Shown: in pieces, positions 3,211-54,300 of the stretch | Position numbering within the stretch: position 1 is the first letter of the stretch | Layout of the letters: every line of letters begins with the position of its first letter | DNA from: Diospyros lotus | Taxonomy: Eukaryota; Streptophyta; Magnoliopsida; Ericales; Ebenaceae | NCBI RefSeq assembly: GCF_014633365.1 | Contig: NC_068341.1 | Location: 7,626,001 to 7,690,000, forward strand | Length of the DNA: 64,000 nt | Reading direction: 5' to 3' | The notes under the pieces: model-generated | What the model saw: the letters and a program-made list of their open reading frames with translations, nothing else | Database searches by the model: none | What the model was told of the DNA's origin: nothing | Translations under genes and position numbers: made by a program

Positions 3211-3279
3211 GATAGCACCATTATTGGAATGAAAATTAGATAAATAAACAACTGGTTTAAGAGAAGAACAGTTGTTGGA

Positions 3280-27339: not shown

Positions 27340-30300
27340 ATGGCGGGACTCCATTCCCCGATTGAGATCAAAGCCTTGGAGGCGCTGGGATCGGGGTTCG
27401 ATATGGCGAGCGATTTCAGGGTAAAGTTCGCCAAGAGCCGGCCCGGAGGGGGGCGGCTGGTGGCGTTGGACGAGGATAACAAGAGGGATATTTTGATTCC
27501 TGGTGGGGCTGTGATTCGGGGCGTTTCGGAGGATATTCGTTGCGATAAAGGAGATCGGATTCGGTTCAAGTCCGACATGCTCGAGTTCAATCAGGTGAAG
27601 GTTTATTTAGCATCTACCGGGTTGTGTTTGAATTGTTGATTTCTATGGGAATTGTGTTCCGTCCAGGCAATGGTGGTTTTTCGGATTGGCAGTTGAACAT
27701 GGTGAATTGCATAATCGACTGGCATGCTATGTTTCCTATTTAATTACTTGCTTGAAAATCTGTTCACTGTGAAATGAATGGAACAAGAAGGAATACTCGT
27801 ATAACTTTCATTTTCTTTTGGTAAAGGCATTACAACTCAAAATTCTTTTTCGAAGTTACTTATGTAGGAAAGGGGTCTCGGTTCTGTGCTATTTAAATCC
27901 CAATAATCTATTTTCAAATATGATGAATCAATTGCCTACGTGAATGTGATTAAATCTTTATCACCCTCCAGAAATGATAACTACTTCAGTGTTTTTTACA
28001 CATCTTGTTAAAACAAACTACCACCAAACCCCTAAACCTCCGGCTCGCTGAAAAAGGGAAAATAAATACAAAATAAAACCCATATCAAGAATTAAAAAAA
28101 AAAAAAAAAGGCAAAGGAGGGAAGAATAATGAAAAACGAAAAAAAATACTAGCATTGCCTCTTAGTTTGAGTTACATGAGGGACTATCCTTTCCGGATGA
28201 AGATTATTTTTCTTTTTCTTTTCTTTTTAATTAATACTGTGATTTAGCTACTTCTTTTCCATGCTGGGCATTTTTATGACAACTACGAGGTGCATAAAAT
28301 GTTTGTGACACCTCCTAGTAATGTTGTCCATAAACACTAATTAAGTAATATCTTGATGTACACTAGCTTGATCTTATTGACATGGCAATTGGATACCCAC
28401 TGTAGTAGATCACTTTTACCTTGCTGGTGACTGAGATTTTTGAATTTCCATGGACGCAGTTGGTCTAATAGTTAATAAGGTCCTTTCTTCCTCAATTGGC
28501 ACATGCAGTCATGTGTAGACAAGGAATGAGTATGAGAAAGTTTCTGTTGCTACCTAATGGTGAAGCAGGATGGAATTTTGTCCCCATGTGTGCTAGAGTT
28601 CATGTTTTCCTCATATTCATTTTCTTTGTATGCTGTCCATGGTCAAGATCGCTACAAAAGTTCCCGCTTCCTTCTGCGAACTGTCAACTGTGGTAGCATA
28701 AGGAGCAATGCAATGTTTGATTTGTGTGCATTTGGGTGGACTACATGATAAAGTTTCAAGGAGTAATATATAAAAGCATGTAACCAAGCCAGGGGCTGAC
28801 TTCAGTTATGGGAAGTTTAGAAGGACCAGAGTGCATGCTCTATCATCTTACTTGGTCAATTTTAATGGGTTTTGCTTTGCCTACTCAGTCTGAGCTTATG
28901 GTCTGGTATGGATATAAGTACCTTCATTCTTGCTATAGTTGGCATAAAATGGTGTAATCACAGTCTCAAGGAGGGAGAAGTAGCCAGACATTCTTGGGGT
29001 TGAGCCATAAAACCACTGTGTTTTTTCATATCATGGCTGTAAAATTCTCCCAGTTTTGGGGTTTTTGAATTTTATTAGTCATCTTTTGTAATAAAGAATG
29101 TGTTGTGGTCAGAATGTAAGTATACAAAAGCCTTACTCTACACAGAACATCCATGTCTAATCCTGACTTTAGGAAGGGGGATAAGAAGGCCATACAAGTA
29201 GGTATGATTATTTTTTATTAAGAAAAGGAATATAGCTGGCTATGGATTATTCTGCTGTAATACCTTGTCACTGTAGATCTCATGGGAGGGAGGTCTCAAA
29301 CATGAAAGCAACTTAATTAATGGCATGAGAATGTCAATTAAGAGGAAAAGAATGTGAATTAGTTTGAGCTTTTAACTGGCTGAGTAATCTCTCTCTCTCC
29401 ACCCCTCCCCCCTTCTCTTATTTATTTCCCTTCTATCTCCTAAGTTCTCCCTCACTACTTTGTGCTTGGCTATTGATTTATATGATTTGAGGAGTTGGCA
29501 GTCTATTTATGGAGAAAAAGGTCCTAGCTGTATGCATCCACTGATGTGTAGAGTTTGGTGCATTAGTTCTGGAGATATTAAGTTTCATTATTTCCTTTGA
29601 CATTCTACAATCTTGGAGGTTGATACCAATATGAGCAAGTATCTACAGTTGAGTGCCATGTGAAATTCAACTGTATTCATTTATGGATGATTATTGAGTG
29701 ATTAGTATTCAATAATAATTACCAGGTATATATATATATATATATATTTCTCCTTTTTGCAATAAGAAACATATAAATGGAACAAAAGAAAGAATGGCTT
29801 CAGGCAGCAAACCCCATATAAAAGATCCGGGCCACTCAGAGATGAACAAAAGAACTATATCCATACAGCCCCATTGAAGCTCATCCAAGAAACTGAACTG
29901 GGAGTCAGGATAGAAGGAAAGATCCTTAGTCAACCATCAAAAAAGGGAAACAAGATTTGTTCTCTTTGAAACTGTCACAAAATGTGGAAAACCCTCAAAA
30001 GCCCTAATATTGCATCCCTTATATAATGACCATGTTACCTACAAATGAACAACTCAAGGGAAGGGCCCCCCTACGCCAAGTGTGTACACCCATCACAAGT
30101 CCTGACATGACACAATGTACCCAAAAGATAGAAAAGATGAGACCCCACACATCATTCGTGTGGAAGAGTTAAATAGTTAGTGTTGTCAGTTTGTTTGTTA
30201 ATTCTATTATGTTTAAGTTAGCATGCTTTACTCAGCTATTTGTCTAGCTGATATGCAGTATTATGCACCTATATAAGGAGAGCAACTATATTCGTTTAGT

Positions 30301-33300
30301 ATGTATGTTTTGATCCTTGTGATCTGTTTTTCTGTAATTCAAGTTTCTTTCTTCTTCGTAATTCAGTTCTGCCCTAGATCTAATTCTCACATGGTATCAG
30401 AGCCATTCTGGTATGTTCCAATGGCCTCAGATCGAGTTGTCAGTTCTGCCTCCGCTTCTCCTCCTCGTCAATCCTCATCGAATAATTCTATCTCCTCGCA
30501 ATCAGATTTCTCAGCTGTTGCGAAGGCTTTTAGCTATATTCCTCTAAAGTTAGACACGAGGAATTATATTTTCTGGAAGGGGCAAATTCTTGCCACGATT
30601 CATGCATTTGATCTTGTTCCGTTTTTGAGCAAGACATCTCCTCCTAAGTGTGTGACCGATTCTAATGGTGATTCAGTAGTGAATCCAGAATACTTGAGCT
30701 GGATTCGTTCAGATCAAATACTCTTTGGCTGGTTATTCTCTACGATCAGCGAGGAAGTGCTTGCTCAGGTGATTCACTTGGAATCATCAGCTGAGATATA
30801 GATTCTGTTAGAGAATTTATATGCAAGGCAGACATTAGCTAAATCGTTTCAACTCAAGCAGCAGTTGAGATCTATTAAAAAGGATGGAATGTCTGTCAAC
30901 GATTATATTCTGAAGATTAAAACTATCTGTCACTCGCTTGCTGCTATAAGAGAACCTTTAAGTGACAATGAGTTGTTATTGGCAATTCTAAATGGCTTAG
31001 ATCAGGATTATGATACGGTTGTAAGTCTTGTCACTTATCAGATGGATGAAATCGATTTGGAGAAAGTCCAGTATCTACTTTTAATGCATGAACAACGTCT
31101 GTCTACTAAGAATCAGGCACTGACTGCTCTAAGCCTTGATCAAGTCACTTCTCCTTTACAAGCAAATGTAGCATCGTCTTCGTCTGCTCAGAATAATGGA
31201 GACTCAAGTTTTGCTAGAGGAGGATTCAATCAACGAGGAAATGGTAATGGATTCAGAGGAGGTAGAGGTCGTGGTAGAAATTCAAATAGGCGAGTTTACT
31301 GTCAACTTTGTGGCAAACCTGGTCACTTTGTAGATCGATGTTATTATCGATTTGATCGAAGCTTTCAGAGGACACCTAATGGCAAATCACAAGGAGGTCA
31401 CAGTGGTTATCCTAGTTCTCAATTGGATACTCGAGCTTATATGGCCTCCCTAAATGAATCTAACGGAGCCTACATGACTGATTACGGCTCATATCAGAGT
31501 TCTCACTGTGGTAATTTTTCAAAACCAAATTTGTATCTTCCTGATCAGTTTGTTTCATCACCTAATCTTCCAGATCAGTCCTGGTTCGTGGATTCTGGAG
31601 CCACGAATCACATTACTTCAAATTTGAATAACCTGTCTTTACATACGCCTTATCATGGTGCAGATAAAGTCACTATTGGTAATGGTAAGCCACTACCTAT
31701 AACTCACATTGGTACTAGTTCTTTACAAACCTTACCTCAATCCAATTTTGTTTTGTATGTGCCAAATATTCTTCATGTTCCTAGTATGACCAAAAATTTA
31801 CTCAATGTATCTCAACTTACACGAGAACACAATGTTATTGCCGAGTTTTAGGGGTGTGCAGGGGTTCGGTTAAACCGAACTAACCGAACCGAACCGACCG
31901 AACCGGTCAGTTCGGTTCGGTTAAATACCAGTTACCCCCGGGTTGGTTCGGTTATGTGTTCGGTTAGAAAGGTTCGGTTCAGTTATACGGTTCGGTTAGT
32001 TAAATATAAGCTCGGTTTGGTGGTCGGTTAACCGATTAATCAAAGCCGACCAATGATCAAACGACGTCGTTTTGTGATGGCTTCGGTTAACCGTGTGAGG
32101 GGACTTCGAGTGCATTCTCGAGCCTTCTCCAGATTTCTAATCGACGAGAGAGAAAGAGAGAGAGAGAGGGGCTCGAAATTGAAACCCTAACCCCCTACCA
32201 AAACCCTATTGTCGCCGTCGTCGTCGCTGTCTACCATCGTCGTCGATTGCTTTCGGCCGTCCTTCGTCACCACCGCCATCCAACAGGTTAGTTCTACTTC
32301 TATTATCGACTCATCGCGCGATCTCTTTCTCTCTCTCGCGATCTCTTTCTCCCTCTCTTTCTCTCTCTCTCTTTCTTTTTTAGTTGCTCTAGCCTCTATG
32401 CGGCTATTATGCCTTTATCTCTTTGTATTTATTTAGTTCTTTTGTTTTGCAAATATCACTAGCGTCCGTCCACGGTCCACCATCCACTCTTAAAGCGATT
32501 TAGTCGTCCGTCCGTCCACTCCTAAAGGTTAAAGGTAACTTACCTTAGTTTGTTCTTTGTTGACTGTTTAACATTTTCGTGTAAATGCTTTTATTTTGTT
32601 CTTTGTTGACTGTTTAACATTTTCGTGTAAATGCTTTTATTTTGTTCTTTGTTGACTGTTCTCTTTTGTCTGTTCACTAATCTGAAATTGTTCTGATGAG
32701 TCAATGGAACATTCGATTATTTTTTAAGTATCTTTTTGGTCGGATGTCACTGTTGTGTTGAATCTGTTTTGTTGATGTTCACTAATCTGACAAAATTTCG
32801 TGTAAATGATTTTGTACTGTATGTGGTTGGATGTCATCATGTAATTGTTGTGTTGAATCTGTTGATGTCCACTAATTTGAGCAATAACTAATAAGCGTGT
32901 AAATGATTTTATACTGTATATATGTGGTTGGATGCACTATTGTGTTGAATATGTTGATGTCCACTAATTTGAAAATTTTTTGTGTAAATGATTTTATATT
33001 GTATGTGGTTGGTTAGATGTCACTCTTAAAAATAATTACCACAACCAATGCATTGTTCTTATGTTGTGATCTTGAAATTTTTGCAGTTAAACAATAATAA
33101 AATCTTATCTTATAATGTCATGTCACATGCATTAACAACTTTAAAAAAAATGTCAAAATATGAATAAAGTAGTAATCCAACAAATTTAATAATAATTTAG
33201 TTATTTCTTTCCCCTTTTACTTTTTCATAAACACCATAAGTTTTCAAACTGCATGTCTCTTATTGTGTGCATTTATAAAAATGATATAGTTGGCTGATAC

Positions 33301-36300
33301 TTTTTACATCAACTGTATAGTTTTTATTACCTTCTTTAACAGTGTGTATGTTTATTAAAATAATGTATGTTGTATGTAAGGGAACAATACAAATTATACA
33401 ATTAGAATATAATATATGATTATTTTTCCATGCTTGATTTTTAATATGAAGGCTTTACCAAAAGATAGCACAACAAACACCAATAACAGAATAAAATAAA
33501 CACACGTATTAGAACAACCAAAGCTTTCCTAAATAAAGAAAATACCTTCATTGGGCTCAAATTAAACCACATACAGTATACAGAATAAAAAACAATCTGT
33601 CAACAGATTGTCAAATTAAAGAAAATACCTTTATCGAGCTCAAATTATTAAATTAAACCACATAATGCCTCAATCCAGGAATCCACTGAAACTGAAATCA
33701 AAATGAAAGGAAAAAAAAAAACAAAAGCAAAAAACAATCTGCCAATAGATTGCATAATTCCTCAATTGTTTTACTTATAAATGATGTGAGATCTTTTCAT
33801 TCCCTAAGACACAAATCAAATGACAACAACTAGAATATATTTAAAATCACTCTTTAAATACAATACATATTAATTACAAATTTACAATTGTATTAATTTT
33901 AGATGGCAAGAGAAGAAGACACCAGTCACACAACAAATATCCCTAGTATGGATGATAGTTCAAGACCTACACCAATAGTACCAAGTCAAGGTAGTCAATC
34001 TGAAGCTGATAGAGGTGCAACATCACTAGGAAAGGCAAAGAGAAAAACATTAAGAGCTAGGTCAGATGTGTGGGATCATTTTACAAAGTTTACAAATTCA
34101 GAGGGTCAAATTAAAGCGAGCTGCAACTATTGTTCTAGGGAGTTCCATTGTGATCCCAAAAAAAATGGGACTACGGCTCTAAGGAATCATATGGGAACAT
34201 GTAAAAAACACTCTCATGCTTTGGAAACCCACCAAATGCAATTAAACTTGCAACCAACTTCAACGGGGGTTGAGAGAGAGGGGGATAGTATGGGATTGGT
34301 GAATTGGAGATTTGATCAAGTGCTTGCTAGAAAGGCTTTAGCTCGCATGGTGATAGTGGATGAGATTGCCTTTCAAATTTGTCCAAAATGAGGGGTTTAG
34401 GCACTTCATAATGTGATTTGTCCAAAATTTCGGATTCCTTCACGTTGGACAATTTCTTGTGATTGTTTTGAATTATTCAATGAAGAGAGGTTAAAATTGA
34501 TGAATGAGGTAAAAAATTCATGTCAAAGAATTTGCTTAACCACTGACACATGGATCTCCATTCAAAGGATTAATTATATTTAATTATATGTGCTTGACGG
34601 CACACTATATTGACAACAATTGGACATTGAAGAAAAAAAATTTAAATTTTTGTCCAATATATAGTCACAAGGGTGATGCCATTGCTATGGCAATTGAGAA
34701 GTGTTTAATGGGATGGAAACTTGATAGAGTTTTGAGTTTGACAGTAGATAATGCTAGTTCAAATGATGTTGTTGTGGGTAACTTCAAGAAAAAAATGGCA
34801 AAATGGGATGCTAGCATTATGAGTGGTCATTATTTGCATATTAGGGGTGTGGCTCATATAATAAATCTGGTTGTGCAACATGGGTTGAAAGAGCTAGATG
34901 ATTCAATAACAAGAGTTAGGGATGCAGTCAGATATATTAGGCAATCTCCAGCAAGACTAAGAAAATTCAAAAAATGTGTGGAAACGGAAAAAATAGAGTG
35001 TTAAGGGCTTATTGTTGTTAGATGTTGCAACTAGATGGAACTCCACATACTTGATGTTAGAGACTGCTCAAAAGTTTGAGAGGGCTTTTGAGAGGTTCGA
35101 TGAGGAAGAGCCATGTTTTATGCTTGATCTTGGTACAAGTAGTTGGAATAATAACTTGCAACAAGTTATTACTATTGATGGGAGACCCAAGCCTGAGGAT
35201 TGGACAAGGGTCAGAATGTTTGTTACAGTGTTGCAACAGTTTTATGAGCTTACTTTGCGGGTTTCGGGTACTTCATATGTCACCTCCAATACTTTTTTCC
35301 ATGAGATTAGTACCGTTCATTGTCTTTTACATGAGTGGCAGGAGGGTGATGATCTTGAGTTGAGTGAGATGGCTGGAAAAATGAAAGAAAAGTTTGATAA
35401 ATATTGGGGGGATAAAAAAAAAATAAATCACTTGCTTTACATGGCTGTGGTACTTGATCCTAGGCACAAGTTAGAGTTTATGGAGTATGCACTTCAGGAG
35501 ATGTATCCATGTGAGAAAGGGGTTGCTGCAGTTTTGTCCTTAAAAGATGCCGTATATGTTTTGTATGAAGAATATAAGAAAAAATTGACGCCTCAAGGTG
35601 AAGCAGGAGAACAGTCTTGTTGGACGAGAAAAGAAGATTCAAATAAATTAAATGATAAAGAAAATTATCCTTGTAGATTATCTTGTTGTTATATTATTGT
35701 ATTTAAATTAGTTTAAGTTTGTTTTTATTTGTTTTATCTCCTAAAGTTTAGGAGATAGTCTTTCCTAGTTTTTAGGATTAGATTATTCCAATCCTTTCCT
35801 ACTCTATAGGAAAGAGATAGAGTTGTATCCTATATATATTTCCTATCCCTCTCAGTTAATGAATTAGATCAAGAATTCTGTTTTGCTCGTTTCATGGTAT
35901 CAGAGCATCAGGCTTGATCAAAAACTGTGTAGTTATTTTTTTTCTCATCTCTCAAGATCATGGCTGATGTTCCCCAAAACCCTACCCTAACGGAGGCATC
36001 CGCTACCAGCTCTCTAGGCCGTCTTCCTTCATCTAGTCGGTTTCCTCTTTTCCAAATCTACCAACTACTTCAATCGATAATCATCCTCTACAAATTACTC
36101 ACCATAAATTGAATGGTAGTAATTTTAGAGAGTGGTTCCAATCTGTGCTACTAGTGATTAAAGGGAAAGGAAAATCCGGCTATTTAACCGGTGCAGTTCC
36201 TGCTCCTTCTGCTACAGCCACTACCTATTGAACTTGGAAGGCCGAAAACTCAACCATAATGGCATGGTTAATCAATTCTATGGAGCCTCGGATTGGGAGA

Positions 36301-39300
36301 ACTTATCTATTCCACAAAACAGCCAAGGAGATTTGGGATTCTGTTCAGGAGATGTATTCCGACTTGGAGAATTCATCTCAAAACTTTGAAACAAAGTCAG
36401 CCATTAGAACAACCAAACAAGGTAACTTAAGTGTTACAGAATATTTTAATGTTTTGGTTGAGTTATGGCATGAAATAGATTTGTTTCAGACCATTAGTTG
36501 GGAATGTACTGCTGATAACATGAAGTATAACAAGATGATTGAAAAGGATAGGATATTTGACTTTCTCTATGGGCTTAATACTGATTTGGATGAAGTAAGA
36601 GGTAGGATTTTGGGCACTAAACCCTTGCCATCTCTCAAGGAAGTGTTTGTTGAAGTAAGAAGAGAAGAAAGCCGACGAAAGGTAATGCTCAACCAACTCG
36701 ATAATCCAAATCTAACCTATCAGAATTCTGCTCTTGCAACTGTTAAACAGGGGGACAATTTTTCAAAAGGGGTAGGAAAGGAGAAGCAGTGGTGTGACCA
36801 CTGTAACAGACCCTACCATACAAAAGACACCTGTTGGAAGATCCATGGCAAACCTGCCAATTGGAAGCCTAAAAACAAGAGAGAAAACACCCGCACAACA
36901 TATGTAGCTGAAACAACTGGAGAAATTGGAAGCAAAACTGATCTGAATCTGACAGAAGAACAGATCCAGGTCCTTTACAGACTGATAAATCAAGGTATTA
37001 CCCCTGCCAGTCCTTCTACTCATCAACCCACTGCATCAACAGTCCAGAAAGGTACATCTCATTTTTCTCTGATATCACAAAAACTTCCTAAGGATGTTTG
37101 GATAATAGACACGGGTGCATCTGATCATATGTCCAGTTCCAAAAGACATATGACTGAATACAAGCTGTGTGATACATTAATTGAGGTTACAATGGCCGAT
37201 GGAACAACCTCTCCTGCTCTAGGATGTGGAACTATTCGTCTTTCGAAACTACAACTTAAATCAGTATTATATGTCCCTGGATTGAGTTACAATCTATTGT
37301 CAGTTAGCCAGCTCACAAATGACATGAACTGTAGAGTGATATTCTTTCCTTCCTACTGTTTATTTCAGGACCAAGCTTCGGGGATGATGATTGGCAGTGC
37401 TGAAGCTAAGGATGGACTTTACTGGTTGACTGGAAACATTTCAGCTTCTTCCTCTTTGAATAAATCTGTTCTAACTGTTACAACCAATGCCAAAGCCATG
37501 TTATGGCATAAACGGTTGGGACATCCAAGTTTTCCTTATCTTAGATTATTGTATCCTCACATTTTTATCAATAAAGACCAAAGTTTTTTTGTGAACAATG
37601 CACTCTTGCAAAACAGTCCAAAACTCATCATTCTATTCACCCTTACAAGCCCTCAACACCATTTCATTTGATCCATAATGATATTTGGGGACCCTCTAAA
37701 CACCCTAATATATCTGGTTCTAGATGGTTTATTACCTTCATTGATGATCATTTTAGGGCATGTTGGGTGTATCTTATGAAGGATAAATCTGAAGCTAGCT
37801 GCCTATTCAAACGTTTCCATAAATTTGTTTTGAATATGTTTCAAGCTCATATTCATATTTTGCGTACCGATAATGGTCGCGAATATTTTTCTCATGACTT
37901 GACTAATTATTTGAATGAACATGGTATTTTGCATCAAAGTTCTTGCCCCTACACACCACAACAAAATGGTGTGGCTAAAAGAAAAAATAGACATCTATTA
38001 GAGGTGGCTCGGGCTATGATGTTTACCTCCCATGTTCCACATTCATATTGGGGAGAGGCTATTCTTACAGCCACTTATTCGATAAATCATCTTCCCTCTA
38101 AACCTCTACGATTTAGAACCCCTCTTGAGACTCTTTGTGACATCTACCCTCATGCACCGTTTCTACAATCTCTTGATCCTAAAATTTTTGGATGTGTGGT
38201 GTATGTTCATAACTACAATGTATCCCGCACAAAATTAGATCCCAAAGCCCTCAAGTGTGTTTTTGTTGGGTACTCTCCTTTTCAAAAGGGATACAAGTGT
38301 TATTGTCCTATTACCCGTTGATTCTATGTGTCTACCGATGTCACATTCTATTAGAACCTCTCTTATTATTCAGGACCAGCTCCTTCTTCCAACCTACATG
38401 ACCTTGTGCCTCTCTCTTTGCCTCTTCCTACTTCTCTGCCAGCATCTTGTCAAGGGGGAGAAGTATCTATCTTTGACAATGTACTGGCAGCATCAACTCC
38501 TAAGCACAAAAATCAAAATCCCCCACTATTTGTGTATTCTAGGAGACCTAAAGAACCTCCACAGACTCAGCATGGTCAATCATCCACCCTTGAAGCTAGT
38601 CCAACGGAAGGTGACAATTCTTTAGGGGATGCATCAGCAGAAGATAACAGTGGAGGCAGGGAGGAGACTGAAAATAACAATGAAGGCAGGGAGGAAATTG
38701 AAAATAGCACTGAAAACAACAGCACGGACAGTTATGCTCCTCAAGGAGATGGTCTCGATTGGGCAGTTCTTATAGCTCTAAGAAAAGGGGTAAGGTCATG
38801 CGTTAAATATCCTATGTCAAACCATCTATCTTATGCAAAATTGTCTCCCAAATTCAGAGATTTTATTGTCGGACTTGATAGTACAGAAATTCCAAAACAT
38901 ATCCAAGGAGCTTTGGATGATCCTAAGTGGAAAGATGCAGTTATGGAAGAAATGAAGGCTTTAATTGGGAATCATACTTGGGAGATGGTTGAGCTGCCCC
39001 CAGGTAAGAAAACAGTTGGATGTAAGTGGGTTTTTACTATCAAACACAATTCCGATGGGAGTATTGAAAGGTACAAGGCTCGATTGGTGGCCCAAGGGTT
39101 TACTCAAACCTATGGGATAGACTATGAAGAGACTTTTGCTCCTGTAGCTAAACTCAACTCTATTCGGGTACTTCTTTCTATAGCTGTTAATCTTGATTGG
39201 CCCTTGTTTCAATTTGATATTAAAAATGCATTCCTCAATGGGGATCTAGATGAAGAAATCTACATGAGAATTCCACCCGGTTTTGAAAAAGAGGTGAACA

Positions 39301-42300
39301 ATGGAAAGGTTTGTAGACTCAAGAAAACTTTATATGGGTTAAAACAGTCTCCTAGAGCTTGGTTCCAAAAATTCAGCATGTCTTTAATCCAGCTAGGATA
39401 TGAACAAGGGAAATCTGAGCATACTTTGTTTATTAAATCCACTAAAGAAGAAGGAAGTCTATATTAATCGTCTATGTTGATGATATAATTGTGACAGGGG
39501 ATGATATGCAAGGAATTGAGGAATTAAAGAAACAACTGAGGGCTGAATTTGAGGTTAAAGACCTAGGGTATATGCGATACTTCCTAGGAATGGAGGTGGC
39601 AAGGAGTAAAGCAGGCATGTTTATCTCTCAAAGGAAATATATTTTGAATTTACTCAAAGATACCGGGATGATGGCATGCAAACCAACTGGAACACCATTA
39701 GATAAAGGCTGGAAATATGAGGAGAAGGATGATGATATCCCAGTGGAAAAAGAAAGGTATCAAAGGCTAGTAGGAAGATTAATCTATTTATCTCTTACTA
39801 GGTCAGACATAGCCTATGCAGTAAGTTTAATTAGTCAGTATATGCATTCTCCTACAAAGAGACATATGAATGCTGTTTTTCATGTGTTAAGATACCTTAA
39901 AGGGACACCTGGGAAAGGGTTGATGTTTAAAAGGACCAAGGATCGAGGAATTGAAGGTTTTTTTGATGCAGATTGGGTAGGTTCTTTAGAGGACAGCAGG
40001 TCCACAACCGGCTATTGCACTAAACTGTGGGGAAATGTAGTAACATGGAGGAGTAAAAAGCAATCTGTGGTGGCTCGCAGCAGTGCCGAGGCCGAATTTC
40101 GGGCCATAGCCTAAAGAATTTGTGAGGTTATTTGGTTAGAAAGGCTAATGGAAGACCTAAGGATACCCTTGACTCAACCTACAAGGGTATACAGTGATAG
40201 TAAATCTGCAATCAGTATTGTAAGAAATCCAATCCAACATGATCGCATGAAGCATGTAAGGATAGACAGGAATTTTATAAAACGAGAAATTGATGAAGGA
40301 GGAATAATTCTATCCTATATTCCAACTGCTGATCAATTAGCAGATGTGCTCACAAAAGTCATGGTTAAACCAAGATTTGAATACTTGATTAGCAAGCTGG
40401 GAATGACCTGCATCTATTCCTCAGCTTGAGGGGGAGTGTTGGACGAAAAAAGAAGATTCAAATAAATTAAATGATAAAGAGAATTATCCTTGTAGATTAT
40501 CTTGTTGTTATATTATTGTATTTAAATTAGTTTAAGTTTGTTTTTATCTGTTTTATCTCCTAAAGTTTAGGAGATAGTCTTTCCTAGTTTTTAGGATTAG
40601 ATTATTCCAATCCTTTCCTACTCTATAGGAAAGAGATAGAGTTGTATCCTATATATATTTCCTATCCCTCTCAGTTAATGAATTAGATCAAGAATTCTGT
40701 TTTGCTCGTTTCAAGTCTCAAGTGTCTACTCCATCTATTGTGGAGAATGTTAAGGGGGGAAAATTTGGCAGACCAAATTTACTTAGTTCTCGTTTCAAAA
40801 AGTTTAAGTATGCTAGTGGTAGTGGGTCTACAACTATGCCATCGGAATGGGATAAGTATTTCAGTGAAGTGTGTGAGGAGGAAACTGATGATTTTGACAT
40901 TTTGAATTGGTGGAAAGTGAATTCTCATCGGTTTCCTATTCTATCTTCTATGGCTCGGGATGTGTTGGCAATTCTAGTTTCTACTGTTGCGTCTGAGTCT
41001 GCCTTCAGCACAGGGGGTCGAGTACTCGATCCATTTAGGAGTTTTCTTTCTCCTAAAGTGGTTGAAAGTTTGATTTGTACGCAAGATTGGATTCGGTCAT
41101 CTACCACCTCAATGAGTGTTGAAGAAGATTTGGATCATGTTGAACAACTTGAAGAAGGTAAACTAATTGTTACTCTTTTTTTTTTTTTTTTTTTTGCTTT
41201 TAGTTCAATACTTGTTGCTTTTAAATTATTTAATTAATTTTGTGTATTGTTTGTTTTAGAATTGGCAAAGGTTACCGTTGACAGCCCCGCACCAATGGAA
41301 ATTTAGATTTTAAAGACTCATGCATTTGTAAGTAAGAGAATTTGTGCCTCTCAATATTTCAATTTCAGTATCTGTTTTGATGTGTTTAATGCATTAGTTA
41401 ATATTTGTTTATTGTATTATTTTACAGATTTAGAATGAAGAATATATACAGCATTTTAGTTCATTTGACTTCTCCAATATGTGTTTTTAGAAGTATCTGG
41501 CCATTTTCTTATGTATTTTTAGAAGGTTAGACAGTTGACTTCTCCAATATAACATGTATTGTTATCTATTGGTTATTTGGTTTGCATTTTAGTTCATTTG
41601 TCTCAAGGATTTTGCATTCTGGTTCCAACAAGCTCTATGGTTGAGACCAATTTCACTTCGTCATCTTAGTTATTACCATAACCCTTCAACAAAAATATTT
41701 GATTACAGGATTTATGTCTTCTTGTTCTTGTTCTTCTTCTTCAAAAATATTTGATTACAGGCTTTATTTTTCACACCAAGAGGTGAAAATTTTAAAAATA
41801 TCGATTTCATTCACTTTTCACCTCCAACGTTGATTTACGTTGTTTTGCAAATGTTTGGACTAACACCATCCTTTTACTTTATAAGTTTATGTGGTATGTT
41901 AATTTTGTTGTGCGTTCTGTTCTGTTATTTTCTTAAACCTGGCAAAATTGATGGAATGAGCATTTTGGACTGAGGTAATGCTGCACTTTTTTTTTTCATT
42001 TTTGGTTCCCTATTTTTTACATGTACCTAATTTGCTTTTTGGTTCTCTAGGATGGGATTTCAATTATGACTTCTTATTTTGTACTGTATTATGCAATTAC
42101 CAAGGTTTTTCGCTAGTTGAGGTATGTAATTCACTTTTTTTACATGAGTTTGATTTGCTCACCCTTTTTTTTTTTTTTTTGTGAGAAGGTAATGCAGACC
42201 TTGTTAATCTTTACATTAGAGATTGTATTTCTTCAAGACCTTAATCTCTTAGTATCACCTCTTTCATTTATTAGATTTTAAGTTTTTTGTTGGTTTTATG

Positions 42301-45300
42301 TTTGTATATTGAATGTTGTGTTATAGAATTTGTTTTCTCCACATATATGCATGTTTATTTTCTGTCTATCTATGGTGTGATAATCATGGTTTTTGACACT
42401 CTCCCTCTTTCTCGTTCCCTACATTTCATCTTTGTCTTTCTCATCATTATCTTCCTACTACTCCACATAAAAAATGGTCACCGCTTAACAAAGTTTGAAC
42501 ATAAATCAGTCCAAACTTATGGAATAGACAATATTATTCATCCTCTTCTTGTTTGCTTTTTGATCCTTTATTCTCTCGAATCCCATAATACCTTAGGGTC
42601 ACTAAGTAGTTGACTTTTTGTATGTTACTTGACAATTCTTGGTGGATTACAGTTACAAAGTTGACACTGTAAATTTTTTGGTATTCCTTGAGCACATAGG
42701 AATTTACAATGTTCATTTTCTGCATCTAGTTTTCAATCCAAACCCATCCCCAAGTTCATCCTGAAAACCTCTACATTTTACCCTTGTGTTGCTTGGGTAC
42801 ACCCCTTCATGTTTGGGTTGTATATAAAAACGTTTTAGATAAAATAACTCAGTGTTGCTAATATTGGGCGCTTACATCAACTGTGGCCCAGTTTTAGTTA
42901 GTTATACATAATGCTTGCTAAAATAAGAAAAAAAAAAATGTTGATTCAATTGGAGTTGGTGCCTAATTTTGCCATCCGTCCAGAGGACAAACATGGAAGT
43001 AGAGTTGGAAAAATGGCTTGAACTTGTAGAGATCTAACCTTGCCCACACTGATTGGGTAAAGTCAAAGGCTATTTCACCACACTATAGTCAAGTCAAGTT
43101 CAAGAAATCCCTTATTTTTTTTTCAATTGGGGTCAAGGCAAGAATGATATTTAGAATCCTTGACCTAACCTAATTTATGCCTTGCCTCATCATACCCCAC
43201 TGTGCCCTCATCTTTTTAATCTAATCCTACTGACTTGATTGTGAACAAGCATTAGGGTTCCATATGTTTGATTTCAATTTGTTTATTTCCTTTCATAATT
43301 TGCGATGTTCACTTAATCCTGAAAATTATGGCATGGGATTTGCTAAAATGATAGTTGTTTCTTTCCATAGGTTTTCTTTGTTGAATTCCAATGATAGTGC
43401 ACGTGTTGTGTTAGTTTCTCATGCTATGAATTTTGGAACAGGAAATATATAGACAATCAATTTGATCAAGTTAATTAGTTTAAGTATGCTGCTAATAAGT
43501 GATTTTTCTCCATCAATACAATATATATATATATATTGTATTGGGTTTATTTTGCTTATTTTGGATGATGATAGAACATAGCACGTTGTCTTTTAAATTG
43601 ACAATAATTAGCACACTCATCACCTAGGATTGTGTATTTATTTTGATTATTTTGAAAAATCGTTAGCACACCCAGAGTTGTTGCCTCCAATCCGTTTACA
43701 TTAGTGCATTACTTGGATGAACTTGTACAACTACACAAAAATTTCTTGAAAAATGATGCATTGACATTGAGGTTGCTAAGACCAAGAGGCAAGAGCTGGT
43801 AAATTAACCACTCCATTTTCCACCACAACGGCACAACCTGCACAAATTATATCATAGTTTCAAAATAAAAAAAAACTAGTAAAAAATAATGAGTTCTGCT
43901 AACTAATGAATGCATTTTTGAAGCTTAATAAATAATAGAGAAGTTTTTGTGTAGTTGTACAAGTTCATCCAAGTAATGTACTAATGTAAATGAACTGGAG
44001 ACAACAACTCTGGGTGTGCTAACGATTTTTCAAAATAATCAAAATAAATACACAATCCTAGGTGATGAGTGTGCTAATTATTGTCAATTTAAAAGACAAC
44101 GTGCTATGTTCTATCATCATCCAAAATAAGCAAAATAAACCCAATACAATATATGTATTGTATTGATTGAGAAAAATCACTTATTAGCAGCATACTTAAA
44201 CTAATTAACTTGATCAAATTGATTGTCTATATATTTCCTGTTCCAAAATTCATAGCATGAGAAACTAACACAACACATGCACTATCATTGGAATTCAACA
44301 AAGAAAACCTATGGAAAGAAACAACTATCATTTTAGCAAATCCCATGCCATAATTTTCAGGATTAAGTGAACATTGCAAATTATGAAAGGAAATAAACAA
44401 ATTGAAATCAAACATATGGAACCCTAATGCTTGTTCACAACCAAGTCAGTAGGATTAGATTAAAAAGATGAGGGCACAGTGGGGTATGATGAGGCAAGGC
44501 ATAAATTAGGTTAGGTCAAGGATTCTAAATATCATCCTTGCCTTGACCCCAATTGAAAAAAAAAAAAGAGATTTCTTGAACTTGACTATAGTGTGGTGAA
44601 ATAGCCTTTGACTTTACCCAATCAGTGTGGGCAAGGTTAGATCTCTGCAAGTTCAAGCCATTTTTCCAACTCTACTTCCATGTTTGTCCTCTGGACGGAT
44701 GGCAAAATTAGGCACCAACTCCAATTGAATCAACATTTTTTTTTTCTTATTTTAGCAAGCATTATGTATAACTATGGTCAACTAACTAAAACTGGGCCAC
44801 AGTTGATGTAAGCACCCAATATTAGCAACACTGAGTTATTTTATCTAAAACGTTTTTATACACAACCCAAACATGAAGGGGTGTACCCAAGCAACACAAG
44901 GGTAAAATGTAGAGTTTTCAGGATGAACTTGGGGATGGGTTTGGATTGAAAACTAGATGCAGAAAATGAACATTGTAAATTCCTATGTGCTCAAGGAATA
45001 CCAAAAATTTTACAGTGTCAACTTTGTAACTGTAATCCACCAAGAATTGTCAAGTAACATACAAAAGTCAACTACTTAGTGACCCTAAGGTACTATGGGA
45101 TTAGAGAGAATAAAGGATCAAAAAGCAAACAAGAAGAGGATGAATAATATTGTCTATTCCATAAGTTTGGACTGATTTATGTTCAAACTTTGTTAAGCGG
45201 TGACCATTTTTTATGTGGAGTAGTAGGAAGATAATGATGAGAAAGACAAAGATGAAATGTAGGGAACGAGGAAGAGGGAGAGTGTCAAAAACCATGATTA

Positions 45301-48300
45301 TCACACCATAGATAGACAGAAAATAAACATGCATATATGTGGAGAAAACAAATTCTATAACACAACATTCAATATACAAACATAAAACCAACAAAAAACT
45401 TAAAATCTAATAAATGAAAGAGGTGATACTAAAAGATTAAGGTCTTGAAGAAATACAATCTCTAATGTAAAGATTAACAAGGTCTGCATTACCTTCTCAC
45501 AAAAAAAAAAAAAGGGTGAGCAAATCAAACTCATGTAAAAAAAGTGAATTACATACCTCAACTAGCAAAAAACCTTGGTAATTGCATAATACAGAACAAA
45601 ATAAGAAGTCATAATTGAAATCCCATCCTAGAGAACCAAAAAGCAAATTAGGTACATGTAAAAAATAGGGAACCAAAAATGAAAAAAAAAAGTGCAGCAT
45701 TACCTCAATCCAAAATGCTCATTCCATCAATTTTGCCAGGTTTAAGAAAGTAACAGAACAGAACGCACAACAAAATTAACATACCACAAAAACTTATAAC
45801 GTAAAAGGATGGTGCTAGTCCAAACATTTGTAGAACAACGTAAATCAACGTTGGAGGTGAAAAGTGAATGAAATCGATATTTTTAAAATTTTCACCTCTT
45901 GGTGTGAAAAATAAAGCCTGTAATCAAATATTTTTGAAGAAGAAGAACAAGAACAAGAAGACATAAATCCTATAATCAAATATTTTTGTTGAAGGGTCAT
46001 GGTAATAACTAAGATGACGAAGTGAAATTGGTCTCAACCATAGAGCTTGTTGGAACTAGAATGCAGAATCCTTGAGACAAATGAACTAAAATGCAAACCA
46101 AATAACCAATAGATAACAATACATGTCATATTGGAGAAGTCAACTGTCTAACCTTCTAAAAACACATAAGAAAATGGCCAGATACTTCTAAAAACACATA
46201 TTGGAGAAGTCAAATGAACTAAAATGCTGTATATATTCTTCATTCTAAATCTGTAAAATAATACAATAAACAAATATTAACTAATGCATTAAATACATCA
46301 AAACAGATACTGAAATTGAAATATTGAGAGGCACAAATTCTCTTACTTACAAATGCATGAGTCTTTAAAATCTAAATTTCCATTGGTGCAGGGCTGTCAA
46401 CAGTAACCTTTGCCAATTCTAAAACAAACAATATCCAAAATTAATTAAATAATTTAAGCAACAAGTATTGAACTAAAAGTAAAAAAAAGAGTAACAATTA
46501 GTTTACCTTCTTCAAGTTGTTCAACATGATCCAAATCTTCTTCAACACTCATTGAGGTGGTAGATGACCGAATCCAATCTTGCGTACAAATCGAACTTTC
46601 AACCACTTTAGGAGAAAGAGAACTCCTAAATGGATCAAGTACTCGATCCCCTATGCTGAAGGCAGACTCAGACGCAACAATAGAAACTATAATTGCCAAC
46701 ACATCCCGAGCCATAGAAGATAGAATAGGAAACCGATGAGAATTCACTTTCCACCAATTCAAAATGTCAAAATCATCAGTTTCCTCCTCACAGACTTCAC
46801 TGAAATACTTATCCCATTCCGAAGGCATAGTTGTAGACCCACTACCACTAGCATACTTAAACTTTTTGAAACGAGAACTAAGTAAATTTGGTCTGCCAGA
46901 TTTTCCCTTCTCAACATTCTCCACAATAGATGGAGTAGACACTTGAGACTGTTCTCCTGCTTCACCTTGAGGCGTCAATTTTTTCTTATATTCTTCATAC
47001 AAAACATATACGGCATCTTTTAAGGACAAAACTGCAGCAACCCCTTTCTCACCTGGATACATCTCCTGAAGTGCATACTCCATAAACTCTAACTTGTGCC
47101 TAGGATCAAGTACCACAGCAATGTAAAGCAAGTGATTTATTTTTTTTGGATCCCCCCAATATTTATCAAACTTTTCTTTCATTTTTCCAGCCATCTCACT
47201 CAACTCAAGATCATCACCCTCCTGCCACTCATGTAAAAGACAATGAACGGTACTAATTTCATGGAAAAAAGTGTTGGAGGTGACATATGAAGTACCTAAA
47301 ACCCGCAAAGTAAGCTCATAAAAGTGTTGCAACACTCTAACAAACATTCTGACCCTTGTCCAATCCTCTGGCTTGGGTCTCCCATCAATAGTAATAACCT
47401 GTTGCAAGTTATTATTCCAACTACTTGTACCAAGATCAAGCATAAAACATGGCTCTTTCTCATCAAACCTCTCAAAAGCCCTCTCAAACTTTTGAGCAGT
47501 CTCTAACATCAAGTATGTGGAGTTCCATCTAGTTGCAACATCCAACAACAATAAGCCCTTAACACTCTATTTTTTCCGTTTCCACACATTCTTTGAATTT
47601 TCTTAGTCTTGCTGGAGATTGCCTAATATATCTGACTGCATCCCTAACTCTTGTTATTGAATCATCTAGCTCTTTCAACCCATGTTACACAACCAAATTT
47701 ATTATATGAGCCACACACCTAATATGCAAATAATGACCACTCATAATGCTAGCATCCCATTTTGCCATTTTTTTCTTGAAGTTACCCACAACAACATCAT
47801 TTGAACTAGCATTATCTACTGTCAAACTCAAAACTCTATCAAGTTTCCATCCCATTAAACACTTCTCAATTGCCATAGCAATGGCATCACCCTTGTGACT
47901 ATATATTGGACAAAAATTTAAAATTTTTTTCTTCAATGTCCAATTGTTGTCAATATAGTGTGCCGTCAAGCACATATAATTAAATATAATTAATCCTTTG
48001 AATGGAGGTCCATGTGTCAGTGGTTAAGCAAACTCTTTGACATGAATTTTTTACCTCATTCATCAATTTTAACCTCTCTTCATTGAATAATTCAAATCAA
48101 TCACGAGAAATTGTCCAACGTGAAGGAATCCGAAATTTTGGACAAATCACATTATGAAGTGCCTAAACCTCTCATTTTGGACAAATTTGAAAGGCATCTC
48201 ATCCACTATCACCATGCGAGCTAAAGCCTTTCTAGCAAGCACTTGATCAAATCTCCAATTCACCAATCCCATACTATCCCCCTCTCTCTCAACCCCCGTT

Positions 48301-51300
48301 GAAGTTGGTTGCAAGTTTAATTGCATTTGGTGGGTTTCCAAAGCATGAGAGTGTTTTTTACATGTTCCCATATGATTCCTTAGAGCCGTAGTCATATTTT
48401 TTTTGGGATCACAATGGAACTCCCTAGAACAATAGTTGCAGCTCGCTTTAATTTGACCCTCTGAATTTGTAAACTTTGTAAAATGATCCCACACATCTGA
48501 CCTAGCTCTTAATGTTTTTCTCTTTGCCTTTCCTAGTGATGTTGCACCTCTATCAGCTTCAGATTGACTACCTTGACTTGGTACTATTGGTGTAGATCTT
48601 GAACTATCATCCATACTAGGGATATTTGTTGTGTGATTGGTGTTTTCTTCTCTTGCTATCTAAAATTAATACAATTGTAAATTTGTAATTAATATGTATT
48701 GTATTTAAAGAGTGATTTTAAATATATTCTAGTTGTTGTCATTTGATTTGTGTCCTAGGGAATGAAAAGATCTCACATCATTTATAAGTAAAACAATTGA
48801 GGAATTATGCAATCTATTGGCAGATTGTTTTTTGCTTTTGTTTTTTTTTTTTCCTTTCATTTTGATTTCAGTGGATTCCTGGATTGAGGCATTATGTGGT
48901 TTAATTTAATAATTTGAGCTCGATAAAGGTATTTTCTTTAATTTGACAATCTGTTGACAGATTGTTTTTTATTCTGTATACTGTATGTGGTTTAATTTGA
49001 GCCCAATGAAGGTATTTTCTTTATTTAGGAAAGCTTTGGTTGTTCTAATACGTGTGTTTATTTTATTCTGTTATTGGTGTTTGTTGTGCTATCTTTTGGT
49101 AAAGCCTTCATATTAAAAATCAAGCATGGAAAAATAATCATATATTATATTCTAATTGTATAATTTGTATTGTTCCCTTACATACAACATACATTATTTT
49201 AATAAACACACACACTGCTAAAGAAGGTAATAAAAACTATACAGTTGATGTAAAAAGTATCAGCCAACTATATCATTTTTATAAATGCACACAATAAGAG
49301 ACATGCAGTTTGAAAACTTATGGTGTTTATGAAAAAGTAAAAGGGGAAAGAAATAACTGAATTATTATTAAATTTGTTGGATTACTACTTTATTCATATT
49401 TTGACATTTTTTTTAAAGTTGTTAATGCATGTGACATGACATTATAAGATAAGATTTCATTATTGTTTAACTGTAAAAATTTCAAGATCACAACATAAGA
49501 ACAATGCATTGGTTGTGGTAATTATTTTTAAGAGTGACATCCAACCAACCACATACAATATAAAATCATTTACACAAAAAATTTTCAAATTAGTGGACAT
49601 CAACAGATTCAACACAATAGTGCATCCAACCACATATATACAGTATAAAATCATTTACACGCTTATTAGTTATTGCTCAAATTAGTGGACATCAACAGAT
49701 TCAACACAACAATTACATGATGACATCCAACCACATACAGTACAAAATCATTTACACGAAAATTTTTCAGATTAGTGAACATCAACAGAACAGATTCAAC
49801 ACAACAGTGACATCCGACCAAAAAGATACTTAAAAAATAATCGAATGTTCCATTGACTCATCAGAACAATTTCAGATTAGTGAACAGACAAAAGAGAACA
49901 GTCAACAAAGAACAAAATAAAAGCATTTACACGAAAATGTTAAACAGTCAACAAAGAACAAACTAAGGTAAGTTACCCTTAGGAGTGGACGGACGGACGA
50001 CTAAATCGCTTTAGGAGTGGATGGTGGACCGTGGACGGACGCTAGTGATATTTGCAAAACAAAAGAACTAAATAAATACAGAGAGATAAAGGCATAATAG
50101 CCGCATAGAGGCTAGAGCAACTAAAAAATAAAGAGATCGCTCGAGAGAGAAAGAGATCGCACGATGAGTCAATAATAGAAGTAGAACTAACCTGTTTGAT
50201 GGCGGTGGTGACGAAGGACGGCCGAAAGCAATCGATGACGATGGTAGACGGCGACAGTAGGGTTTTGGTAGGGGGTTAGGGTTTCAATTTCGAGCCTCTC
50301 TCGTCGATTAGAAATCTGGAGAAGGCTTGAGAATGCACTCGAAGTCCCCTCACGCACGATTAACCGAAGCCATCACAAAACGACGTCGTTTGATCATTGG
50401 TCAGCTTTGATTAATTGGTTAACCGACCACCAAACCGAGCTTATATTTAACTAACCGAATTGAACCTTTCTAACCGAACCGACCCGGGGGTAACCGAACC
50501 GGTTACCGAGCCATATTTAATCGAACCAACCGGTTCGGTCGGTTCGGTTTGACCGAACCCCTGCACACCCCTAGCTAGCTATGTGATTTATATGTTAGTC
50601 TATGTTGATGATATATTAATCACTGGTTCCAATTCAGCAGCTTTGCGTGCTTGCATAGCCGATCTAGATCGTTCCTTTGCTTTAAAAACTTTGGGAACTG
50701 TCAATTATTTTTTGGGGTTTGAAGCTTATCGTGATCACTCTGGTCTCTATCTCACTCAATTCAAATATGTTCGTGATTTGTTGGAAAAGGCCTCAATGCA
50801 GGATTGTAAACCTTGTAGTACTCCTATGGCTGCTAGTACTTCTCTTACTGTTGATGGAGAGCTGTTTTCCCAACCTAAGTTGTATCGTACTCTAATTGGT
50901 TCCTTGCAATATCTTACTTACACCTGGCCTGATATTGCTTTCACGGTAAATAAATTGAGTCAATTCATGGCTGCTCCTAAACTGCAACATTAGTTAGCTT
51001 GTAAACGGTTGTTGAGGTATATTAAAGGAACTGTTGGTTTGGGTCTAGTTTTCTCTTCCTCAGCTGAAACTTTGTCTATCATGGTCTACACGGATGCAGA
51101 TCATGCTGGCTGCTGAGTAACTCGTTGATCTACTACCAGGTTTTGTGTCTATCTTGGACAAAATCTTGTTGTATGGGGATCAAATAAGCAATTGGTTGTT
51201 GCTCGTTCAGTGGGTGAAGCTGAATACAGAGCTGTTGCCTTGGGAGTAACTAAAATTGTGTGGCTGAAGAATCTATTGCAAGAGCTGGGATATCCTTGTA

Positions 51301-54300
51301 AAGCTACTCCTATTGTGTGGTGTGACAATTTAGCTGCCAAAAGTATGGCAGAAAATCCTGTATATCACTCACGGACAAAACACATCGGTGTTGATGTTCA
51401 TTTTGTAAGGGAGAAAGTAGAAAATGGTGAGGTGGAGATCAGGTATGTTCCTATTGCTGAACAAGTTGCCGATGTTTTCACTAAGGGGCTGCCTAGAGAT
51501 TGGTTTCATTTGCTGTGCACTAAATTGGGCCTTACAGAGACACCTACAAGAATGTTTCAGCAACAGGAGTCTAAATTGAAGGGAAGTGTGGAAGAGTTAA
51601 ATAGTTAGTGTTGTCAGTTCGTTTGTTAACTCTGTTATGTTTAAGTTAGCATGGTTTACTCAGCTATTTGTCTAGCTGATATGCGGTATTATGCGCCTAT
51701 ATAAGGAGAGAAACTATATTCGTTTAGTATGTATGTTTTGATCCTTGTGATCTGTTTTTCTGTAATTCAAGTTCCTTTGCTCTTGGATAGTTTCTTTCTT
51801 CTTCGTAATTCAGTTCTGCCCTAGATCTAATTCTCACAATTCCAACTTCAAAAGTAATATTGATCAGTGCTCAACTATGCACGAGTATAGGGCACAGCTC
51901 ATTAGTACTGATCTCTGAGTGGGTACTGTGTGATGCGTCTGTTGTTCTGTGTCTGTGCATAAAGATTTGGTCTTAAAGATGGAAGCCCAAAACAAAGTCA
52001 TATACCTCTCCATATGTGGGATATATCCCCAAGCTGTAGTCCAATTTGAATGATGACTAATTTGTGTGATTTGGAAAATCAGTGGTGATGTATGCATGCT
52101 CATGTAGTAGCATTGAACAGATCTTGGAATTTCCTTTGTTCAACTGGTCCACTAAAGGGAAAAAATACTGAAGCCGTTCTGCAACAGGCTGTGATTGACC
52201 TTAACTTTCTATGTGTACACAGAGTTATGCCAGTTTGGTTACCTTGCTTCTTGACTAATTTGGATTGGGGCAAGGTGTTGGAAATATCACAAATTTACTC
52301 AAATGATAATTCGAATAACAGCTGAATTTCTCTCCTAATCTTATGACTGAAAAATAGGAGATAAAAAGATAAAGTGATAAGGTGATTTGGAGATTAGAAA
52401 ACTCGAAAAATAAAGGGATAAAGGCAGTAGATAATTCTAGATATCTCAACAGTTTTTTAAATTCTTCTTGTTGTATTTTATCTTCTAAACATTGAAATAT
52501 GTTCCTAGAATATAGGAGATAATCTAGATGTTGTGTATAAATATCCCATACTACCCGATAATAAATCAAGCAAGCAATATATAGTTCTTTCAGCTTGTTT
52601 CATCTTCTTCAACACAAGGTAGTACTCAACAGTTAGATTTTGTAGAAACTAGTATACATACTAAATGTTTGAGCTGTACGCAAGGAACTTGACTGGTTCA
52701 CATGTGGAGCAATATTAATCTCGTTGTTTGCTTAACATTTTATAATGCAATCTCATTTTTCAAAAGGGCATGAGCTTATATATCATTTTCAGTTCTTTAC
52801 TCTGCCAAGACATTGCTCATTCCCAATTTTTTTGCATTTTCTGTATTAGAGTTTTGTGGTTGGTTTTTTGCCTGACTATATGTGTTATTGTTATGGCTAA
52901 ATGATTTGGCCATAGTCTCTGGGTACTGATGCAAAGACTTTGGCTTCATTCTGATCTTAACTCCTAGTTCTTTTTAATTCTTTTCGCTGCAGATGTCTGA
53001 GTTGCTTAATCAGAGATCTTCAGTTCAAGGGAAAGTCCCTTCAGGCTATCTTAATGCTATCTTTGATTTAAGTGGAGACTGGTTGACAGATGCCTCAGAT
53101 GCAAAATATCTTGCTTTTGATGGTTGGTTCATCTCACTATACTATTTGCACCTGACTGCATCTCCCCTAGTACTCCGAGACACTGTGAAAAAATCTGTTC
53201 CATCTCATTGGAATCCAGCATCACTGTCTAGGTAATTTTTTTATTTTTTTCTGTATAATAATTTAGCATTTTACGAATCTTATTCTATCACACGTCAAGA
53301 GGAGCCAAGAATAGGTAAATCATCGCACTTGTATGAAGAGAAATGAAACAGAGTCACAGAGGATCATTAGTTTTTTGCAGTTCTTGATGACTTGAATAGG
53401 TTCATTTTGTTGTTTCTTCCTCTCTTTTTTTTTCCTGCTAACCCACAATGTGGGGAAAATATCATATATCAGCAAAATTACAAGCTTGGGAAAGACAGAT
53501 TAGAATGATAGAAAGACATAAACTGAAACAATCAAGCAAGATCAAATGAAATCTAAGAAACTGAAGAGAGAGCTTCTCTCTCAAATAAGCTAGCAATATG
53601 AGGTGGAAGACTATTAAACCCCAGCTTAGAAGAACAACTTTTAGCAAAGGAAATCAGAGCATGTGCAGCCTTATTAGTGGATCTATGAGAGTGGTGCAAG
53701 GACCAATCTGGATGTAACCCAATAAATGTTGAATGTCAGCAATTTGAGAGTGAATTGTTGTTTCTTCCTTTGCGTGCATAGGGTTTGGCCCTTTTTCACT
53801 TTTTTGTTTTGTGAACTATTTGCTTGTAAAAATTAGCCCAGGGTCAGAGGCAGAGAGAGCAAAACTTAGTAACTGACAGAAAGGAATAGGGTAACAAAAA
53901 ATTCACACTCCTCAGTAACTTAAGATGTTGAGTTTTGGGCATAAGGAGTAAGCACAAAGGAATGAGGGAGGACCTGGGATGTTCTTTTAATTTAGCTGTC
54001 TGTCTACTTATCACCTGCAAAGCCATCTCTCTCTCTCTCTCTCTCTCATTAGGCAAGCACATCTGTAGTTTTACAATCTGAAATGATCATGTTTAGTGAT
54101 GCTGATTAGGCTTCCTTTGGCAGGTTTATCCAGACCTATGGAACTCATATAATTGTAGGCATGGCTGTTGGAGGCCAAGATTTGCTTTGTCTAAAACAAA
54201 AACCATCATCAACAATTCCTCATGCTGAACTTAAGCAATGTTTGGAGGATCTTGGAGATTGTCTATTTTCAGATGGAATGAGTCCTCCTCTACTAGATAA

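Follow-up and report, generated by a model that had tools for sequence, protein, structure and literature searches.

A TIR-to-TIR hAT inverted duplication in the first intron of an intact MACPF gene of Diospyros lotus

A hAT palindrome lies in the first intron of a MACPF gene

The stretch of DNA analysed here (64 kb of Diospyros lotus contig NC_068341.1; hereafter the window) contains a MACPF gene of seven exons (27340-56629, plus strand) whose 25,398-bp first intron holds a large palindrome built from a hAT transposon. The palindrome is an inverted duplication, running from terminal inverted repeat (TIR) to TIR, of one dead RICESLEEPER-type hAT lineage, and it lies within a partly deleted copia retrotransposon in that intron (Table 1). 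The joined MACPF exons encode a 614-aa product in an uninterrupted frame. This product is identical over its full length to D. lotus protein P0001 (annotated At4g24290-like) and carries the Pfam MACPF domain (E=7.6e-25). The exons on either side of the palindrome therefore yield one unbroken protein, and that protein is an annotated one. An earlier note on this DNA had placed the palindrome inside intron 1 and hence within a transcribed unit, and its position inside an annotated-type transcription unit is supported. The same note called the gene a cell-death regulator. Among the matches listed, named relatives are mostly generic MACPF, At4g24290-like or At1g14780-like proteins, with a few CAD1/NSL1, so this label should be read at the level of the family only.

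The two arms of the palindrome face each other tail to tail across a spacer of 192 bp, in line with the roughly 190 bp first estimated. The left arm measures ~6.80 kb (31849-35617 plus 40719-43746) and is split by a second, nested copia of 5.1 kb; the right arm measures ~6.64 kb and is uninterrupted. A self-BLAST of the window recovered the inverted arms in three main pieces of 96.8%, 98.3% and 87.2% identity (gaps counted). To compare the arms base by base, we removed the nested copia and aligned a core (left 31995-43745 against right 43940-50455) that excludes the poorly aligning outer ends (146 nt in the left arm, 118 nt in the right). Within this core, 6385 of 6504 bases are identical (98.17%), and the 119 differences divide into 89 transitions and 30 transversions; there are also 17 gap events totaling 158 gap bases. 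Inclusion of the outermost stretch gives 6477/6621 identical bases (97.83%) and 21 gap events. The core diverges evenly along its length (K = 0.0182 for its outer and 0.0190 for its inner part). Exact inverted matching reaches 343 nt at most, against 16-20 nt in five first-order Markov simulations of 64 kb. The initial description of two near-identical 6.7-kb half-copies was thus right about the identity of the arms; they are, however, unequal in length, the left one is split, and they are not literal halves. Each arm also carries lesions of its own, an extra frameshift in the left and stops in the right. Separately, 15 of the 17 core gap events leave the right arm shorter (two-sided binomial P=0.002).

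The outermost stretches (31849-31994 and 50456-50573) are a mosaic of CGGTT/AACCG repeats. Over the 102-106 bases that align, the number of gap events varies from 5 to 11 and that of mismatches from 5 to 8 with the gap cost chosen. This gap density, set against 17 events in 6504 bases of core, suggests that the outermost stretches may come from two different source ends, or may reflect slippage in the CGGTT-rich repeats.

Both outer ends of the palindrome are 5' ends of a hAT element

Pfam domains support the earlier assignment to the hAT superfamily: zf-BED is present in both arms, together with hAT RNase-H and hAT dimerisation domains. An open reading frame (ORF) of the right arm matches PF05699 (E=7.1e-29) and PF14372 (E=1.8e-28), and the dimerisation domain also emerges in the left arm in a read-through translation of the inner part. 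Both outer ends begin with TAGGGGTGTGCA, at 31849 on the plus strand and at 50573 on the minus strand, and from this sequence each arm reads inward through the transposase gene. Consequently, both termini, although they form the TIR pair of a hAT element, are the same 5' (transposase-proximal) end. Each arm comprises this 5' end, the whole (broken) transposase gene and ~2.4 kb past it. A scan of the window for the TIR, allowing up to 2 substitutions, found six places, namely the two outer ends and positions 20371, 21309, 25812 and 34842; near the spacer, within 40714-46950, it found no match that could represent a 3' TIR. The 8-bp flanks of the palindrome, CCGAGTTT and GCTAGCTA, differ from each other, so that no 8-bp target-site duplication (TSD) surrounds it. 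Such an absence is expected if the 3' ends were lost.

Three transposase frameshifts, near left-arm positions 34410, 34580 and 35000, are common to both arms. They were read from the frames of the arms against the relatives P0132 and P0300, and the arms are identical to each other at all three places. These shared lesions indicate that the common ancestor of the arms already lacked a working transposase of its own.

Among the best 120 of 2979 relatives, full-length hAT proteins reach ~50-55% identity, many of them named RICESLEEPER 2-like, and a partial relative (P0132) reaches 76% identity over 56% of the query. Closer relatives come from a set of 1008, again taken as the best 120. Here D. 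lotus protein P0241 is 90% identical over 78% of the query, and each of the three that reach 90% identity is a fragment (P0241, 289 aa; P0242, 216 aa; P0300, 209 aa). P0241 is probably encoded on another chromosome than the MACPF protein P0001, since the contigs listed for them measure 54.5 Mb and 45.1 Mb, respectively. The arms match each other at 344/360 residues and match P0241 at 259/289 and 261/289. Site by site, the two arms agree against P0241 at 21 positions, are split at 14, and all three sequences differ at 1. Polarizing the 21 sites with two outgroups left 8 callable, with 3 changes on the side of the arms and 5 on that of P0241. The shared sites alone are thus weak evidence, and it is the distances and the shared frameshifts that carry the common ancestry of the arms.

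We also looked for a captured host gene. None of the 8 inner-arm peptides (out of 28 listed) that were compared with Pfam, with no plant-wide search of these peptides made, gave a match above the cut-off; three sub-threshold matches fell in two of these 8 peptides (E 0.022-0.062). A 48-aa open frame of protein-like composition at 43656-43799 crosses the edge between left arm and spacer without a stop. It has no match in Pfam, NCBIfam or PDB (E up to 10), and an ORF at 43234-43449 has none in NCBIfam. The 48-aa frame could be a captured exon, in which case the left arm would extend without a break into the spacer.

The palindrome sits between two copia insertions in time

The copia that encloses the palindrome lies in sense orientation within the MACPF intron, as previously noted. 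Its two long terminal repeats (LTRs) show 7 differences in 233 positions (divergence 0.031 +/- 0.011). A 19-nt segment is found only in the right LTR (30159-30391 compared with 51587-51838). This copia is not complete. Outside the palindrome, the end of Pol_BBD and RVT_2 position 163 are separated by only ~36 bp of copia sequence, whereas in the nested copia the same two points (Pol_BBD position 79 and RVT_2 position 163) lie ~2.1 kb apart. The palindrome therefore sits in a deletion, with ~2.1 kb of the enclosing copia missing between its two ends, a loss that the earlier note had not reported. With this host segment missing and no TSD present, we rejected a single clean hAT insertion.

The nested copia splits the left arm, and its empty site is preserved in the right arm. 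It is younger than the palindrome, and its LTRs are identical at 274/277 positions (divergence 0.011 +/- 0.006). Because of this nesting the order of insertions is certain: first the enclosing copia, then the hAT palindrome, then the nested copia. The divergences follow the same order, from the enclosing LTRs (0.031) through the arms (0.0186 +/- 0.0017) to the nested LTRs (0.011).

For the palindrome itself, we favor an origin from two 5' ends in one copia. Two transposase-made 5' ends would have joined the same copia ~2.1 kb apart and in opposite orientation, either by local transposition or by an alternative transposition reaction. Subsequent loss of both 3' ends and the intervening copia would have left the 192-bp loop; the nested copia entered the left arm later. 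If so, the locus would record an unusual hAT reaction that left two flush 5' ends and removed the host sequence separating them. Two points weigh against this history. What the lost 3' end looked like and where the spacer came from are deduced rather than read from another full copy of this hAT, and the differences in divergence that agree with the nesting are not significant (enclosing/arms P=0.21, enclosing/nested P=0.20, nested/arms P=0.49).

The main rival for the origin, which is independent of any function, is copying in place: after a break, repair synthesis would have copied the 5' part of one hAT element twice, with no second insertion. The frameshifts shared by the arms, their even divergence and arm breakpoints no more than 192 bp apart would all fit such an event. 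Repair alone nonetheless does not account for a right arm that stops exactly at the TIR at a different copia position, and it leaves both the loss of 2.1 kb of copia and the missing TSD unexplained. The excess of gaps in the outermost 146 nt also hints at two source ends, although this short-repeat region is slippery. Overall, we consider copying in place less likely than not.

Table 1. Features of the MACPF gene and of the elements in its first intron. Positions are those of the window.
Feature	Position	Strand	Remarks
MACPF exon 1	27340..27594	+	start of the host gene; product identical to P0001
MACPF intron 1	27595..52992	+	25,398 bp; contains both copias and the hAT palindrome
5' LTR, enclosing copia	30159..30391	+	233 bp; 5-bp flank ATTCG; followed by primer-binding-site-like TGGTATCAGAGC
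Left remnant, enclosing copia	30392..31848	+	Retrotran_gag_2, Pol_BBD 1-79 of 81; broken where it meets the hAT end
Left hAT arm, outer part	31849..35617	+	5' TIR and CGGTT-rich subterminal sequence; zf-BED and the greater part of the broken transposase; one copy of the TSD, AGTCT, at its inner edge
Nested copia	35618..40713	+	277-bp LTRs at 35618-35894 and 40437-40713; TSD AGTCT; sense
Left hAT arm, inner part	40714..43746	+	second TSD copy at 40714-40718, transposase C-terminus, ~2.4 kb beyond
Spacer (hairpin loop)	43747..43938	.	192 bp
Right hAT arm	43939..50573	-	98.2% identity with the left arm, no interruption; same 5' TIR flush at its outer end
Longest transposase ORF, right arm	46454..47566	-	hAT-like_RNase-H, Dimer_Tnp_hAT
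Right remnant, enclosing copia	50574..51586	+	RVT_2 from profile position 163 on
3' LTR, enclosing copia	51587..51838	+	252 bp; 5-bp flank ATTCC, 4/5 bases matching the left flank
MACPF exons 2-4	52993-53231, 54124-54325, 54411-54488	+	
MACPF exons 5-7	54562-54745, 55183-55349, 55910-56629	+	

Other features of the window

Two further copia-type stretches, coding on the minus strand, occupy 1-4048 and 14073-19152. Their LTR-like direct repeat pairs are 92.4% and 97.0% identical, respectively, and their interiors are ~81% alike. Three neighboring ORFs may encode proteins of familiar type: 24616-25069 resembles an oil-body-associated protein, 57451-58386 a PPDK/dikinase-type protein, and 9146-9817 the zinc-finger end of a topoisomerase. 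Neither known RNA families (at the gathering threshold) nor tRNAs were found in the window.

The palindrome could form a long hairpin RNA

The capacity to form double-stranded RNA (dsRNA), which had been claimed for this locus from the outset, is supported by folding. The central 891 nt fold at -568 kcal/mol, compared with -169 kcal/mol (standard deviation 7) for 20 shuffles (z = -58). The right arm contains exact partners for 4239 of the 6775 24-mers of the left arm and for 4491 of its 6778 21-mers. A dsRNA from this locus had been expected to cover the whole transposase together with the ends of the element; it would indeed cover the whole, broken transposase, but the 5' ends only.

Substitutions between the arms carry a trace of past silencing. 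C/T differences occur at 19/316 CG, 20/448 CHG and 50/3656 CHH sites, an enrichment over CHH for both CG (odds ratio 4.6, P=9e-7) and CHG (odds ratio 3.4, P=3e-5). Because of this enrichment, the arms were probably methylated in the past.

Every full-length MACPF pre-mRNA must contain the palindrome, and we propose that this RNA could fold into a near-perfect duplex of ~6.5 kb with a 5.1-kb internal loop, corresponding to the nested copia, in one arm. Dicer-like enzymes would make small interfering RNAs (siRNAs) from this duplex, 24-nt species with some of 21/22 nt, whose main effect would be to maintain methylation of the intron and of hAT copies related to it. Intron 1 would be spliced out, as in other heterochromatic introns. 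We assign a probability of about 0.45, slightly short of even odds, to an intronic hairpin of this kind that feeds siRNAs and mainly reinforces methylation of itself and of its family. Speaking for it are the closely matched arms, the intact MACPF frame, the CG/CHG enrichment, the existence of relatives of this hAT and the use that D. lotus itself makes of an inverted-repeat gene, OGI, against MeGI. Several observations count against it. A CG/CHG bias is expected for any silenced transposon, and it does not separate hairpin-derived siRNAs from ordinary maintenance. Three sense LTRs (the outer 5' LTR and both LTRs of the nested copia) precede the spacer and could terminate read-through before it is reached. 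Finally, the left arm is interrupted by the nested copia.

Only somewhat less probable is an inert relic: a palindrome in heterochromatin that a long first intron carries as a passenger. Its methylation would be the ordinary RNA polymerase IV-dependent kind, as in its neighbors, with no hairpin-specific siRNAs and no effect in trans. The CG/CHG decay would fit such ordinary silencing, as would the death of the element before its duplication and the later entry of a copia into one arm. In addition, heterochromatic introns in rice are common, long and biased to the 5' end of genes (PMC7145194). Set against this, the arms are still 98.2% alike and flank a small loop, so that a transcript crossing them could form long dsRNA, and the frame of the host gene is intact.

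An active silencer is considerably harder to sustain. The palindrome would then be, or have been, a dominant trans-acting silencer of the active members of its family, a hAT version of Mu killer. The architecture matches that reported for Mu killer, in that transposase copies face each other beside a gene and both ends are transposase-proximal, and the three relatives with at least 90% identity among the best 120 of 1008 are fragments. Yet the copy that was duplicated already had three frameshifts and, on this evidence, was dead beforehand. The relatives were compared from protein databases, and intact genomic copies may exist; and in Mu killer itself it was antisense rather than read-through RNA that went with silencing. 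We therefore regard this silencer as improbable. A shade less probable again is its fullest form, in which the hairpin trigger of this naturally arisen hAT analogue of Mu killer would be wired to the promoter of a gene of the immune-type MACPF family. Silencing RNA would then be made each time the gene is transcribed, and D. lotus, through OGI, already has another inverted-repeat locus for trans-silencing.

Large palindromes are difficult to assemble, but a false inverted copy is very improbable here: the arms differ by private changes (in the core, 119 substitutions plus 17 gap events), the nested copia with its clean TSD lies in one arm opposite an empty site, and the two flanks are the halves of a single gene and a single copia with nearly matching 5-bp flanks, so that we rejected a simple assembly duplication.

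Comparison with known systems

In Antirrhinum, the hAT element Tam3 rearranged the locus at which niv-525, a trans-acting inverted duplication, lies, and the duplicated part is host gene. The present palindrome resembles it as an inverted duplication involving a hAT element; it differs in that a transposon, not a host gene, was duplicated. Alternative transposition of Ac/Ds (sister chromatid transposition, SCT, and reversed-ends transposition, RET) produces inverted duplications and deletions in the flanking DNA whose breakpoints fall at the termini of the element (PMC3744419). As in those products, hAT ends appear to have been used abnormally at our locus and the breakpoints coincide with element ends. 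However, SCT and RET use one 5' end and one 3' end, whereas this locus has two 5' ends and no matching 8-bp duplication.

The host intron also has parallels. Intronic heterochromatin occurs in more than 10% of rice genes and is biased to the 5' end (PMC7145194). Intron 1 of the MACPF gene is likewise a long, promoter-proximal, transposon-filled intron in an intact gene; the rice introns, in contrast, are defined by measured methylation, whereas methylation here is deduced from decay only. In D. lotus itself, the inverted repeat OGI represses MeGI via small RNA (PMC7048303). Our locus shares with OGI the species and the inverted repeat, and the small RNA of OGI represses a related gene in trans. 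OGI, however, arose from a host gene, MeGI, and has its role in sex determination, while this locus is derived from a transposon. A 2024 Arabidopsis paper still counts transposon hairpins as possible triggers and leaves the hairpin that it found untested (PMC11624286). We recognized no described hAT hairpin of this kind among the papers listed by the literature searches (titles and abstract openings, with most subscription journals outside the search).

The parent of Mu killer was an active MuDR, whereas the transposase of the present element was dead at duplication. As described, Mu killer has two TIRs that both come from the mudrA-adjacent end and inverted partial copies of mudrA, ~1.3 kb on each side, and it lies between amy4 and acm1 (PMC3440606). 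Our locus likewise has both ends from the transposase-proximal side, facing transposase copies, an internal deletion and a position beside or within genes. The Mu killer-like layout claimed by the earlier note is therefore closer than had been claimed. In other respects the two part company: this locus is a hAT palindrome with arms of 6.6-6.8 kb, not a MuDR derivative with ~1.3 kb of mudrA per side, and it lies inside an intron rather than between two genes. It is not a Mu killer, because its domains are those of hAT elements and it is not MuDR-derived. The likeness, as known from sequence, is accordingly one of layout only.

The mechanism that the earlier note took as known for Mu killer, a silencing hairpin transcript, is itself disputed. 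Flanking-gene read-through is the proposed source of the hairpin; antisense transcripts were seen in silencing plants, and read-through sense transcripts from the flanking gene in non-silencing plants (PMC3440606). In the authors' view, this disproves that the antisense RNA comes from read-through, although they leave room for hairpins formed by minor, longer transcripts (PMC3440606). For the D. lotus locus, the anatomy first described thus proves mostly right, and the mechanism proposed with it is plausible but in places contradicted.

Mu killer is a well-known natural transposon hairpin that starts heritable silencing, and the origin and action of such triggers are still argued. A second natural case, from another superfamily and in the intron of an intact gene, would, if true, offer a direct test of whether an intronic hairpin is diced when the intron is spliced. 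It would also show whether such a hairpin acts in cis or in trans, and how a host gene tolerates it.

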